DNA of 64,000 nt from Raoultibacter phocaeensis (GTDB lineage Bacteria > Actinomycetota > Coriobacteriia > Coriobacteriales > Eggerthellaceae), in NCBI RefSeq assembly GCF_901411515.1, contig NZ_CABDUX010000001.1, forward strand, positions 62,001-126,000, written 5' to 3'. A model generated the notes under the pieces. That model had not been told where the DNA came from and made no database searches. It worked only from the letters and a program-made list of their open reading frames with translations. Shown here piece by piece: positions 45,124 through 51,290 of this stretch (positions are counted from its first letter, which is position 1; every line of letters starts with the position of its first letter). Made by a program: the position numbers and the translations under genes.

Positions 45124-46194
45124 TTACATCAATCCGGTTGCCTTAAGGTCGAGATAGTTTTTGCGCACACCCGTTACCGCTTGAGCTTTCTCGCGGTAAA
45201 GCTCGACCATGTGCAACACCGCCCGAACTGCTTGTTCGAAACGCTCAACGGCACCATCGGCTGTCGGCAAAGAAACGGCGCAAAGCGTTTGCTTAAGATG
45301 ATCGAGATCGGAGATATCTCCCGCCCGTATCTCATTCGCCCAAGCGCGAAGCGCGCAGAACACGGTCGCCAAAGGCAGGTCGGTCGACGAATCGTCAACG
45401 TACATGCTCTTTCCAACAGGCCAGCATGGTTTCTCGGACCACAGGATCCATGGCAAAGAACCTTTAAGGCCCAAAACGATCGCGGGCCCAGAAGCAAGCG
45501 CCCGATTATGCATGCCCATCACACCGAAAGGAGATACGATAGGAAAACAGCCCGTAACGCGATCGCAAAGCGGCAAGTCGCGCCCTGACGATGGAAGAAC
45601 CGCCTCACGAAACGCGACTGTGCGCGGCGAGACGTTCGAACAAAGCGAACTCGAGCGGTTGATCAGCGCCGTATAGGCATCGTCAAGGAAGAGCAACGCA
45701 TTCCGTTCGAAATCCGCTGCCCCCTGCGCGATTGCGTTACATGAAGAAAACGCACAGGCGAGGTGCGCCGCTTCTTGTTCACCAGGATAGTAAAACTCGA
45801 TCCCCATAAGCGCATCCCGATCGATATGACAATTCGGAGAGAAATAGTCAAGCAGAATCCCCGTCGTATCGGTGTTTGCAAGCACCCGCTGCAGAAAAGC
45901 CGCGTCGCTTGCTGCCTCGATTCCATACGCAAGATAACCGCTGTCGACAAACGCCCTTCCCCGCACGACATGGGTGAGAAACGTGTTCTTCTGGGATCTG
46001 CTCCGCACTCCATCCGCTATCACAAGGTGGACGCCGTCTATATTCCAATCGTCGACCGTCGTTAGTCCTCGGTCGGATGCCTTGCCATAATAAGGGTAAG
46101 GGCCCGATCCTTGCTCGATGCGGTACCCCGAAGGAAGCTCTCGGTCGGGATCAACGAAAACGACCATTTCGGACAACCGCTTACGCATCGGCAT
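45124..46194 (-). CDS. HsdS-like (type I restriction specificity-like) protein
   Basis: 356 residues with two target-recognition-like halves. The first half has GSGPYPYYGKASDRGL, DGVHLVIADG and GRAFVDSGYLAYGI; the second has GCFPIVSPFGVMGMHNRAL, AIVLGLKGSLPWILWSE and PCWPVGKSMYV. Both match the PYYG...GKG...FW-P...Y pattern of HsdS. A C-terminal helix (about 300-345) would correspond to a conserved coiled-coil spacer. It overlaps the HsdM-like gene by 14 bases. No HsdR gene is nearby. With a degenerate M partner, sequence-specific DNA binding without modification is possible. Confidence 0.7.
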   Translation of the reverse strand: MPMRKRLSEMVVFVDPDRELPSGYRIEQGSGPYPYYGKASDRGLTTVDDWNIDGVHLVIADGVRSRSQKNTFLTHVVRGRAFVDSGYLAYGIEAASDAAFLQRVLANTDTTGILLDYFSPNCHIDRDALMGIEFYYPGEQEAAHLACAFSSCNAIAQGAADFERNALLFLDDAYTALINRSSSLCSNVSPRTVAFREAVLPSSGRDLPLCDRVTGCFPIVSPFGVMGMHNRALASGPAIVLGLKGSLPWILWSEKPCWPVGKSMYVDDSSTDLPLATVFCALRAWANEIRAGDISDLDHLKQTLCAVSLPTADGAVERFEQAVRAVLHMVELYREKAQAVTGVRKNYLDLKATGLM

Positions 46195-47488
46195 CCCTCA
46201 ACTTTCGAACTGCATCGTAGAGGTCTGAACTCGCCGATTCAATGCGTGCATCGATCTCGCGGAGTGCAGCGAGACGTGTATCGACCGATCCACTACCGTC
46301 CTGCTCTTCGCCAAAGCGTTCTGAAACGTAGAGCTCGGGAGCAAGCAGGAACTTCTTGCGTACAACCGATTCAGGAGCCACAGATCGGCATACACCCACT
46401 TTGTCGGCGTACGATCCGTCTGCCGCCAGCCATGAGTCGTATGCGCTAGAGCATATACGGATGCCGTCATCGGACATAGTTCGAGGCGATCCTTGTCTCG
46501 TACGACATATCAGGTCTTTTGCATCGACCATCAAGACCGAACGATCACGCCGTTTTTTCGCAAGAACCAAAAGGCATAACCCAAGCGATGTGCCGGGCAT
46601 CAAGCGCGAAGGAAGCGCCACCACGCACTCGAGAGAGCCAGTCTCGATAAACCTTCTTTTTATCTCAGACTCCTCTGGTTGCACCGTCCACATCACATCG
46701 TTCGGCATGATCAGACAAGCCCTCCCACCATCGGCAATCTGCGATACAGCCGATTCGATCCAAGCGAAATTCGCCTTATGCGCAGGAGGTCGCCCGAACA
46801 GCCACGTTCCATCTCCTTCGTGGAGCACTCCCGCCTCTTCTTCGCACCATGAACCTTGATTCAAAGGCGGCATTGATACAACAAGATCGAACACCGTAGA
46901 AGATGCTTCCCGCAATGCGCAACCGCTTGACGCGTTAAGCTCGCGAGCACCGATGCGCCGTCCGACGCGCTGCAATAACAGCCCATCCCGCGGATAGCAA
47001 TCAAATACGACGGGACCCGGCTGCTCTTGTTGCAGGGCCGCGCCATCGCCTCCGAAGTCCGTCGCGCACAGCCGTTCGGCATCCATCGCAAACACTCTCG
47101 CACAAATAACCGAGGCCATGCACTCGGTAAGGGCGATAACGCACAAAGGAGAGCCCATTTCCGCACCATCGGGCGAAAGCCTTCGTTTGACGGAGTTCAT
47201 AACAAGTTCGGATAGGGCTTCTTTTGGCAGGCACTCGATCGACTTGGCTATTTTCGCAAGGCTGAGAGAGCGAAAGTCCGATCTCAACACACCCGCTCCG
47301 CAGTCCGAAGCCCGCTCCGCATCGACTCCGCTATCTCGTTGCCTCGCCGAAAGCATGTCTATGATTTCGCTTCCGTGCATCCGCAGCGCTTCTTCCGACA
47401 ATGCATCGAGCAGCTGTCCGAAAAATTCGTTCACCGTCTCAGCGGCGTCGGCATAGTCTGTAAGGACCTCTTCAACATACGAAATCAT
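46181..47488 (-). CDS. HsdM-like N6-adenine methylase homologue with degenerate catalytic motifs
   Basis: 435 residues from the ATG at 47488 (GGGGTG 7 bases upstream; an ATG at 47509 is also in frame). The C-terminal half follows HsdM: FDLVVSMPPLNQGSW, then ANFAWIESAVSQIADGGRA, LIMPNDVMW, IKRRFIETGSLECVVALPS and SLGLCLLVLAKK. However, motif IV (N-P-P-F/Y) reads M-P-P-L, and motif I (D-P-x-x-G-x-G) reads FDCYPRDGLLL. Both the SAM loop and the adenine-binding Asn appear lost. It is translationally coupled to the HsdS-like gene. It is probably an inactive methylase used for DNA binding or regulation; inference. Confidence 0.7.
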   Translation of the reverse strand: MISYVEEVLTDYADAAETVNEFFGQLLDALSEEALRMHGSEIIDMLSARQRDSGVDAERASDCGAGVLRSDFRSLSLAKIAKSIECLPKEALSELVMNSVKRRLSPDGAEMGSPLCVIALTECMASVICARVFAMDAERLCATDFGGDGAALQQEQPGPVVFDCYPRDGLLLQRVGRRIGARELNASSGCALREASSTVFDLVVSMPPLNQGSWCEEEAGVLHEGDGTWLFGRPPAHKANFAWIESAVSQIADGGRACLIMPNDVMWTVQPEESEIKRRFIETGSLECVVALPSRLMPGTSLGLCLLVLAKKRRDRSVLMVDAKDLICRTRQGSPRTMSDDGIRICSSAYDSWLAADGSYADKVGVCRSVAPESVVRKKFLLAPELYVSERFGEEQDGSGSVDTRLAALREIDARIESASSDLYDAVRKLRDADA

Positions 47489-47543
47489 CGAATTCACCCC
47501 GATTCCCATTCGACTCTCAAGCTTATGGAATTGCCGACGAATT

Positions 47544-47568
47544 CCAATCCCCCGCGACGGGGGATTGG
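47544..47568. promoter_or_regulatory. 11-bp perfect dyad between HsdM-like and flavoprotein genes
   Basis: CCAATCCCCCG-CGA-CGGGGGATTGG. It lies 56 bases before the HsdM-like start and 121 bases before the divergent flavoprotein start. No T run follows on either side, so an operator or leader hairpin is more likely than a terminator. Confidence 0.45.
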
Positions 47569-47688
47569 CAAATCAATGTGATATCCCCCGTCTGCGGGTG
47601 GCGAAAGGCTTACTCAGCACCCCTACCATATCGGAAAGGCCGCCGATTCATGAGGGGATCGTTTCAGGCCAAGGGAGAAAGGGGCATC

Positions 47689-49581
47689 ATGGATGCACAA
47701 GGAAGACACCACCAGCCAGATCAAGAACGAATAACGGTACCAGATCAGAGGCATTCGCTTGAACGACGCGACTTCCTCAAAGCGGCGGCAGGGTTCGGAG
47801 CTTTAGCTGCCGGCGCTGGAATTCTCGGGGGTTGCAGCCCATCGGAACAAACACCGTCTTCCGATGGGGGCAAAACAGCAGCGTCGAACGCACCTGAAAG
47901 CGTTTCGTTCTCGGCGCAGCATCCTTGGCTTGGGGAAAAACCCGAGATCGATTCTGCCGACATTGCAGAAACGGTCGATACCGAGATCGTCATCGTAGGC
48001 GGCGGCAACTCGGGGCTTCCCTGTGCTCTTGCAGCCGTCGACGGCGGTGCGAAAGTGGTTGTACTTGAGACACAGCCGCAGGATTCGATGTCGTGGTATG
48101 GAATGGCCGACATCGCAACGCTCAACTCTGACTTCATGACAAGCATGGGAGTACCGCACATCGATCCGGTGGAGTTCCTCGTCGACATTCAGAAGAGAAC
48201 TCAAAACCGTTCTGACCCCCGCATCATCAAAAAGTACATCGACCACAGCGGCAGCATGCTCGACTGGCTCGTAAGCGAACTCGACCCCGAATTCGTAGCG
48301 TCGGCACAAGTACCGAACTTCCCCGGAGGCAACGCTACGTACTTTGAAAACGGAGGCGATATCCACGGTTTCAAAACCTGGGTTGCCTGCTTGCGCCTCA
48401 TCAACGCATCGGCCCCGAACGGCTGGCCGGTGCTCGTGCAGAAAGCCGTCGATCGTGGCGTTGACTGGCGTTGGGAGCACACCGGCGTCGTTGTAGTCCA
48501 GGATGACTCCGGCAAAGCGACCGGCGTCATCGCGAAGGATGCAGACGGAGCGTACAAGCAGTTCAACGCAAGTAAAGCAGTTGTGCTCGCCGGCGGAGAC
48601 TACGGCGGCAATCCCGAAATGTACGTATCGCTGCAAAACGAAATGCGCGAGGAGTGGCAGGCGCGCGGACTCGACCCGACCGGCATCACGAGCGCATTCG
48701 GCCGCGATGGAAGCGGCATTAAGATGGGTATGTGGGCAGGCGGCGTAATCGAGCCTGGCCCCCATTGCAAAATCTGGCCCGACATCGTCTTCAACAGCCA
48801 GACGTATGCCCCCAATGAGCTCAAATGGGGCGCAAGCTACGATCTAGGCCCGAACCCCGAGCATGCCGACATGGATCCTATCGGAACAGCTTGGTTCTGC
48901 GTAAGGGCCTCTGACGGACGCCGTTTTACCGACGAGGGCATGATGGGCATCGTAGGCATGACGAACCGCGTCGAGCACCTGCCTGAAGAAAAGTACATCC
49001 ATATCTGGGACGATAAGTGGCCCGAATTCTTGCCGCGCATGTCTGCCGAGCACTTCATGCCGTACTCAACGCCTGATCAGATCGAACGCTGGCGCAAGCG
49101 CCTCGACGGCTGGATCGCAGCCGGTGCGGCAGGCGAACCGCGAACCGACGACGGCGAAGTAACGTGTTGGGCGGCAAACAGCCTTGAGGAACTGCTCGAC
49201 TACATGGGAGTCAAAGGCGATATCAAAGCAAAAATTCTCGATGAGATCGAGCGATTCAACGGCTTTTGCGCCAACGGAGTCGATGAGGATTTCGGCAAGG
49301 ACCCGCAGCTACTCATGTCGATCGATCAGCCTCCGTACTACGGCATGTACAACGTGAGCGAGAAGCCGATGGTCGGCACGTGCGCCTTGAATGGCCTCAA
49401 CATCGATGTGCAGCAACACGTCCTTTCGACAAAAGGCGAACCGATTCCCAGCCTGTACGCTACCGGGAACAATTCAGGCGGGCGTTTTTCCATCCAGTAC
49501 TCCGAGCCTTCGCCGGGCGTAAGCATCGGCATGGCGCTCACGCTGGGACGCGAACTCGGCAAGGAGCTTGCGGAGCTGTAG
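47689..49581 (+). CDS. Exported FAD-dependent reductase (third flavoprotein)
   Basis: 630 residues from the ATG at 47689 (AAAGGGG upstream); the frame is open to 47578 but without support. A Tat signal (LERRDFLKAAAGFGALAAG) with lipobox-like LGGC. The FAD loop is EIVIVGGGNSGLPCALAA (near 100-117). The C-terminal block is SLYATGNNSGGRF. No FMN-attachment motif. It differs from the other two flavoproteins in many blocks, including a Trp-rich middle, so a different substrate is likely. A LuxR/membrane regulator gene lies 173 bases downstream. Confidence 0.9.
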   Translation: MDAQGRHHQPDQERITVPDQRHSLERRDFLKAAAGFGALAAGAGILGGCSPSEQTPSSDGGKTAASNAPESVSFSAQHPWLGEKPEIDSADIAETVDTEIVIVGGGNSGLPCALAAVDGGAKVVVLETQPQDSMSWYGMADIATLNSDFMTSMGVPHIDPVEFLVDIQKRTQNRSDPRIIKKYIDHSGSMLDWLVSELDPEFVASAQVPNFPGGNATYFENGGDIHGFKTWVACLRLINASAPNGWPVLVQKAVDRGVDWRWEHTGVVVVQDDSGKATGVIAKDADGAYKQFNASKAVVLAGGDYGGNPEMYVSLQNEMREEWQARGLDPTGITSAFGRDGSGIKMGMWAGGVIEPGPHCKIWPDIVFNSQTYAPNELKWGASYDLGPNPEHADMDPIGTAWFCVRASDGRRFTDEGMMGIVGMTNRVEHLPEEKYIHIWDDKWPEFLPRMSAEHFMPYSTPDQIERWRKRLDGWIAAGAAGEPRTDDGEVTCWAANSLEELLDYMGVKGDIKAKILDEIERFNGFCANGVDEDFGKDPQLLMSIDQPPYYGMYNVSEKPMVGTCALNGLNIDVQQHVLSTKGEPIPSLYATGNNSGGRFSIQYSEPSPGVSIGMALTLGRELGKELAEL

Positions 49582-49754: not shown

Positions 49755-51290
49755 GTGAAACAGCCTGTTCGCGGCTCCGCAAACAGGGGCGGAGCACCGC
49801 CTTTGCACACATCGCAGAAATCGTCTGCGTCGAACGTAACGGACCAAATCGCGACGTTCCCATGGAGCCGTAAATCAACCTGCCAGCTCTTCGGATTTAT
49901 GTCGTTTCAAATATGGGTTTGGATGGTGTTCTGGTCTCCGACATTCAGCGGGTCCACGATTTTCGACGAGGCAGATTCGTCTTCGACGCTTTTTTTCCTC
50001 TCGCTCGTTGCCAATGCCGCAACCCTTGCTTTTTTCTTCGCGTTTTGCCGGTATGTCAATCCGCTTTATCGCTTCACCTGGCTCCCGATAGCCTCATGTG
50101 CTTTCATGAGTGTCGGATGCCTGCTTTTGTCGGCCGATCAACCCGGATTCGGCACGCTTGCGGGGTCTGTTACCACTGGCATTGGAAGTGCTACGATGAT
50201 GGTGCTGTGGGGCGAAAACCTCAGTCGGGTAAAGACACGGCAGGTGCTTTTGTGCTGCGTTCTTTCCTCGATTATCGGGGGGCTTATCAGCATTGTTGTC
50301 ACATGGCTTCCCCGCATGGGGGGCCGAGGAATAGCCATAGCGCTGCCGATCGTATCTGCCGCATTCTTCGTTGCCGTAAAAAGATGCCTTGAACAGTCGG
50401 AAAAGCCCGTTATCGACGTTCGGCCCCCTATCAAACTACCCGTTCGCATCGTCGTCACCTCGGTTTTTTTCGGCTGCTGTTTCGGGCTTATGAGGGGTCT
50501 GTTCTCTTCTGAGTATTTTGTGAGCCACCATCCCGATACGGTCATGAACATGCTTGCATTCGTTGCAGCCGGCCTTATCGTGCTGGTGACCGCTGTGATA
50601 TTTAAACTTGATTTTCGAAGGCTTACCTATCAGATTGCGCTTCCCTTGATGGCCCTCGGATTCATTTTCCTCACCGTAAGCGGTATGCAAGGCTGGGCTA
50701 TGCCTGTGCACAATCTCGGTTTCCAACATTTTTACATTATTCTTTGGACACTCTGGGCATATCTCGGCATCAGAAAAGACATACCGGCTAGCTGGATGTT
50801 CGCCTGCGGTATGCTGTTTCTCCAGATCGGCCAAATAGTCGGATCGCAACTCGGCCATCTGTTCACCAGCCAATGGCCAAGCCACGAAGCGTTGAGCACT
50901 CTTTCGCTGCTCACGTTATTCAGCATTCTCATCATGGCTTTGTTTTTTCTTGGCAGCAAAGATTTCCAGATGGGATTCAGCCTCATCAAGCCTGGGATCA
51001 AACAGCAGAATCCGTGCGAGTACGGACAAGCTGACCTGCTTTTATGCTGTACGGCAATCGGGCGGACAAACGGGCTGTCAGATCGAGAGATCGAGGTGCT
51101 CAGCTTGCTTGCACAACGATACAACCGTCCTCAAATTTGCGAATTGCTCGTCATCAGCGACGAGACCGTAAAGACGCACATAAAGCACATCTACCAAAAA
51201 CTTTCGATCCATACACGCGAAGACCTCGTCGATCGAGTGAATCGCGAACTAGAACTTGTGAAAAGCGACGACTTTCTTGATTCGATATAG
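49755..51290 (+). CDS. LuxR-type regulator with multi-span membrane domain (2)
   Basis: 511 residues from a GTG. Around 10-12 spans cover residues 42-415. The C-terminal HTH is GLSDREIEVLSLLAQRYN, then ICELLVISDETVKTHIKHIY and KLSIHTREDLV. A consensus -10 TATAAT (49693-49698) lies upstream. It is transcribed separately, downstream of the third flavoprotein, which it may regulate. Members of this class pair a transporter-like sensor with a DNA-binding domain held at the membrane. Confidence 0.9.
   Translation: MKQPVRGSANRGGAPPLHTSQKSSASNVTDQIATFPWSRKSTCQLFGFMSFQIWVWMVFWSPTFSGSTIFDEADSSSTLFFLSLVANAATLAFFFAFCRYVNPLYRFTWLPIASCAFMSVGCLLLSADQPGFGTLAGSVTTGIGSATMMVLWGENLSRVKTRQVLLCCVLSSIIGGLISIVVTWLPRMGGRGIAIALPIVSAAFFVAVKRCLEQSEKPVIDVRPPIKLPVRIVVTSVFFGCCFGLMRGLFSSEYFVSHHPDTVMNMLAFVAAGLIVLVTAVIFKLDFRRLTYQIALPLMALGFIFLTVSGMQGWAMPVHNLGFQHFYIILWTLWAYLGIRKDIPASWMFACGMLFLQIGQIVGSQLGHLFTSQWPSHEALSTLSLLTLFSILIMALFFLGSKDFQMGFSLIKPGIKQQNPCEYGQADLLLCCTAIGRTNGLSDREIEVLSLLAQRYNRPQICELLVISDETVKTHIKHIYQKLSIHTREDLVDRVNRELELVKSDDFLDSI

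Follow-up and report, generated by a model that had tools for sequence, protein, structure and literature searches.

A degenerate type I M/S-like gene pair of Raoultibacter phocaeensis belongs to a small conserved family and has probably been repurposed for gene control, not virus defence

The closest described systems are the type I methyltransferases EcoR124I (M2S) and PacII (M1M2S; 7vru/7vs4); the Asn and the aromatic residue of the NPPF/Y motif are catalytic-pocket residues that were mutated in PacII, where the C-terminal helix of M packs against S (PMC9613975). The gene pair that we report here resembles both systems in the fold of the C-terminal half of M, an S protein with two recognition domains, overlapping M and S genes and the C-terminal M helix, but it lacks the NPPF/Y motif, the SAM loop, the GEFYTP motif and an adjacent HsdR; its relatives depart further, with S-M fusions of which some have one recognition domain and no SAM half. 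In Eggerthella lenta, transmembrane LuxR regulators (TM-LuxRs) activate co-localised enzyme genes, and 50 of its 83 transmembrane LuxRs are close to flavin enzymes (PMC9734109). The LuxR and FAD-dependent reductase beside our pair match the pattern of the E. lenta activators with 10-12 TM segments and co-localised reductases or dehydroxylases; the main text of that paper describes no M/S-like partner of such units, the word "methyl" being absent from it and "restriction" occurring in a cloning passage (PMC9734109).

We analysed a stretch of 64,000 nucleotides of the R. phocaeensis genome (the window), which contains the following features.

45124..46194, minus strand: HsdS-like protein, 356 aa (PADLOC type I specificity models, 2e-11; aligns with the S halves of fused relatives)
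45346..45627, minus strand: second recognition domain, TRD2-like, approximate limits (PADLOC Specificity_I, 5.7e-12 for this half)
45715..46194, minus strand: first recognition domain, TRD1-like, GPYPYYG...DDW, approximate limits (alignment with relatives)
46181..47509, minus strand: degenerate HsdM-like protein, 442 aa (alternative start at 47488)
46862..46873, minus strand: motif IV position, MPPL instead of NPPF/Y, aa 213-216 (sequence, and alignment with 16 canonical and 16 degenerate proteins)
46973..47005, minus strand: motif I, remnant of the SAM loop, FDCYPRDGLLL where DPxxGxG is expected, aa 169-179 (alignment)
47147..47167, minus strand: GEFYTP position, reading GAEMGSP (sequence and alignment)
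47544..47568, no strand: dyad CCAATCCCCCGCGACGGGGGATTGG, a candidate operator in the divergent promoter region
47578..49581, plus strand: FAD-dependent reductase carrying a Tat-type signal (FAD_binding_2, 3.9e-24; TAT_signal matched weakly, under the cut-off; start codon uncertain)
49755..51290, plus strand: LuxR-type regulator of the TM-LuxR type, its N-terminal part long and hydrophobic (GerE, 1.3e-12 at aa 441-493)

The M-like and S-like reading frames are both intact, lie in the order M-S and share 14 nt, so that the overlapping pair described in an earlier, sequence-only reading is confirmed at 45124-47509; that reading had started the HsdM-like frame at the second ATG, 47488. The GC content of the pair gives no sign of a foreign origin. 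The M protein matched Pfam N6_Mtase with an E-value of 3.3e-27, the match being limited to aa 204-398 (model positions 123-306), and the same search gave no match in its SAM-binding half. Its homologues in the PDB (3khk, 7vru and EcoR124I) are M subunits of type I enzymes, the best Foldseek match being PacII M1 (2.5e-15), in agreement with the type I methylase fold proposed from the sequence. The loss of NPPF/Y and of the SAM loop that had been proposed also held, with MPPL and FDCYPRDGLLL in their places, and a third motif, GEFYTP, was found to be lost as well; the GEFYTP aromatic, the catalytic Asn and the SAM loop are thus all gone, and the C-terminal helix is retained (aa 409-441). Comparison of motif I among the window protein (FDCYPRDGLLL), relatives (FDPCMRDGSVL, YDPHLGTGDAL) and canonical HsdM (YDPCCGSGGMF) makes the placement of the remnant by the sequence-only reading look right, though MAFFT gaps the region otherwise. 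Judged from these motifs, the pair has very probably lost methylation.

The S-like protein was likewise said to keep two recognition-domain patterns, and it does, TRD2 by HMM and TRD1 by alignment with relatives alone; the TRD1-like half searched by itself with HMMs gave no significant match. Alignment with the S part of fused relatives covered both halves (E 6e-8 to 1e-5). AlphaFold2 models of the window M protein (mean pLDDT 58.9) and of a fused relative (mean pLDDT 49.8) are both weak outside the C-terminal half of M: in the window protein that half is confident and matches 7vs4, 7vru and 3lkd, and residues 1-202 mostly are not. In the fused relative two long helices part the predicted domains and the M part follows, a layout which fits the S-M order and is no evidence on its own.

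A profile built from the C-terminal half of M, with members taken at E <= 4e-71 and canonical HsdM starting at 3e-45 (a sharp gap), recovered 16 members in 12 genomes, the window included; the 15 others are in 11 other genomes of two related bacterial families. Conservation across Eggerthellaceae, the window's own family, had been named as a check, and 11 of these relatives belong to it and four to the sister family; Enteroscipio rubneri, Rubneribacter badeniensis and Gordonibacter sp. An230 are among the named hosts. A further member, beyond the 16 analysed, was found in a Bifidobacteriaceae MAG (L104). We found no close orthologue of the window pair. In most relatives the two proteins are joined as S-M fusions of two sizes, long (about 660-900 aa, for the most part with two recognition domains) and short (about 456-512 aa, with a single one), whereas the window has two genes, M before S. 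No NPPF/Y occurs in any of the 16 proteins analysed (aligned letters MPPL, FPPP, LPPN, LPDN, FPAP and similar), and in a tree with 16 canonical HsdM proteins a single branch divides the two groups (99/99, 98% of bootstraps); placement within the degenerate group is unsure because several branches, including that of the window, are long. This is not one decayed gene but a small conserved family, so the picture of a lone pair did not stand. Among the papers listed by our search of open-licence literature, none described this M/S-like family.

The SAM loop forms a series, kept in four fused proteins (DPHLGTG, DPHVGAG, DPHLGAG and DPCLGVG, all like DPxxGxG), broken in others and absent with the entire SAM half from six short ones. 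The four kept loops speak for an active methyltransferase with non-standard motifs; against such an enzyme stand the six proteins without a SAM half, the replacement of the catalytic Asn in every member and the threefold motif loss in the window, and we regard it as highly improbable. The pair could instead be what is left of a type I restriction-modification system in decay, functionless now and on its way to loss, as the missing catalytic motifs and HsdR, the long branch of the window copy and the absence of the pair from G001, the one further genome of this genus that we searched, would suit. The intact, operon-like overlapping frames argue against a remnant, as do relatives in several genera with common motif loss and conserved gene order; their dN/dS values of 0.17-0.31 over whole genes and 0.08-0.19 over TRD1 reveal purifying selection, measured in the relatives. 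We consider decay unlikely.

One protein that matched the profile, from a Ruthenibacterium MAG (L105:7305-8744, plus strand), was left out of the family because it keeps NPPF (NPPFNQTGW). It has an odd SAM loop, YDPHCACGALL, and NQ and PPPRSN features in common with the dead family, and is possibly near the ancestor of that family. A single-protein query of viral contigs returned no relative, and phage and plasmid records gave distant matches alone, below 35% identity, among the matches listed; the two plasmid matches that we examined carry NPPF plus an S and an R gene.

Rapidly varying recognition domains are a hallmark of type I systems that the fused relatives do not show. Across species of the fused subgroup, TRD1 identity was 70-92% as against 52-87% for M, with TRD1 higher in 10 of 10 pairs. 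As a control we took 151 pairs of canonical systems of that class whose M proteins share 70% identity or more: their TRD1 identity had a median of 19% and was above 50% in two pairs, individual values being rough since a simple rule fixed the limits of canonical TRD1. Among the short fusions the recognition domain (40-81%) and M (46-67%) change at about equal rates. The constancy of TRD1, measured in the relatives, would suit a regulator with a fixed DNA target more than it would suit a defence enzyme.

This conservation bears on a suggestion of the sequence-only reading, that the pair is an anti-restriction decoy; such a protein, or a phage-defence component, would occupy type I sites or block type I enzymes. 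Its descent from a defence protein would suit that role, and the window genome offers a possible target in a canonical type I system. That system is separate from the pair, complete, and contains the single HsdR_N match of the genome; no HsdR adjoins the pair in its neighbourhood, as had been reported. The HsdR_N match is absent from seven of the 12 host genomes, among them G095 (one contig) and G097 (two contigs), both of 99% completeness; absence is less sure in G045 and G053, which are fragmented and 89-90% complete. Furthermore, the neighbourhoods examined look metabolic or regulatory, unlike defence islands. The failure to find HsdR in most hosts, together with a recognition domain that stays constant in the relatives, weakens the case for a decoy or defence role, which we consider unlikely. 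The canonical system (G000:C2:195118-202168, outside the window) consists of HsdR, S and an NPPY-bearing M; downstream of this M lies one more S-like ORF.

DNMT3L is a eukaryotic, catalytically dead DNA methyltransferase paralogue with a non-catalytic role; like DRM3 it assists an active enzyme, whereas the window pair has no apparent active partner. DRM3, also a dead eukaryotic paralogue, is an inactive relative kept for a non-catalytic role (PMC2965745), and in this it is like our pair. A helper subunit of this DNMT3L type, or one half of an M1M2S enzyme, would need an active M partner; the retained C-terminal helix, which in PacII contacts S, and PacII M1 as the closest structure are consistent with it. 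By the family-search profile, one profile alone, G028, G032, G095 and G097 have no other HsdM, and the only other HsdM of the window genome belongs to another subfamily and has S and R partners of its own, making a helper distinctly improbable.

We then consider the neighbouring genes, where the preferred reading, a regulatory role with the LuxR/reductase unit, finds its linkage evidence. The pair is divergent from the reductase across a strong dyad, as the sequence-only reading had it: the dyad has two perfect 11-nt arms and a 3-nt spacer, and 0 of 100 shuffles gave such a dyad. The window pair is physically linked to an enzyme gene and to a TM-LuxR but shares no operon with the latter. Since reductase and LuxR genes are abundant in the window genome (82 and 114, respectively), this single adjacency is weak evidence; by our own estimate it could arise by chance for roughly 15-30% of genes. 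Among the relatives LuxR, not named by the sequence-only reading, is the more consistent neighbour. Of the 11 relatives in the window's bacterial family, 10 come immediately after a TM-LuxR gene that has the same orientation, and the remaining one comes after a reductase; the LuxR and relative frames overlap in at least six cases, and where LuxR is present the reductase is upstream of it or divergent from it. In the Bifidobacteriaceae MAG, LuxR follows. In the sister family one of four members adjoins a reductase and three have neither reductase nor LuxR alongside. Same-strand order and overlapping ends across genera are the stronger part of the linkage evidence, compared with a single adjacency; the cases are not independent events and perhaps reduce to four or five lineages.

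Taken with conservation, this linkage makes a regulatory role with the LuxR/reductase unit the best-supported function, at a probability of about 0.55, and the pair has probably been repurposed for gene control and not for virus defence. The earlier proposal of specific DNA binding without modification as a regulator accordingly fares unevenly: its non-methylating part is strongly supported because the catalytic motif is lost family-wide, and its regulatory part is indirectly supported through TM-LuxR/reductase linkage, purifying selection and the unusual conservation of TRD1 in relatives. On the preferred reading, the pair derives from a type I methyltransferase (S plus M), has lost methylation and most likely acts as a site-specific, non-covalent DNA clamp in the control of this unit. 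It would bind within the unit's promoter, which in the window may mean close to the dyad, and once bound it would repress or assist the LuxR activator. We propose tentatively, at somewhat less than even odds, that the M/S complex was domesticated as a sequence-specific transcription factor or a reader of DNA-methylation state which, with TM-LuxR sensors, controls anaerobic reductase genes. If true, restriction-modification machinery has turned regulator without methylation in gut Actinobacteria, hosts with many reductase/LuxR units, which process drugs and dietary compounds, and a class of transcription factors has a restriction-modification origin. Automatic annotation is likely to label the pair "type I methylase" plus "specificity subunit", and methylome and defence inventories would be misled by such labels.

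We found no target motif for the pair. One further copy of the window dyad, with two mismatches, occurs in the genome outside the window (CCAATCCCC-N7-GGGGATTGG; G000:C2:321970-321994). Comparison of dyads across the loci of the relatives revealed a different dyad or none at each locus, and there is therefore no common operator. Within the fused subgroup, a dyad block TGGGTGAATTTCGCCGTTTTCACCCA, the last bases of which vary in L093, is found in the divergent promoter of reductase and LuxR (L093:4920-5260, L095:5020-5380, L096:4650-5010 and L092:5350-5730); this conserved dyad upstream of LuxR may be a candidate LuxR or M/S site.

Two LuxR-less members of the sister family, L040 and L043, are adjoined by a similar small membrane protein, and L040 and L044 have a similar gene pair nearby, the first gene being flavodoxin-like by eye. 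Just upstream of the reductase-LuxR-M/S unit of Gordonibacter sp. An230 lies a 404-aa ORF (L097:1703-2917, plus strand) that is tyrosine recombinase/integrase-like by eye, and the unit may be mobile in this strain.
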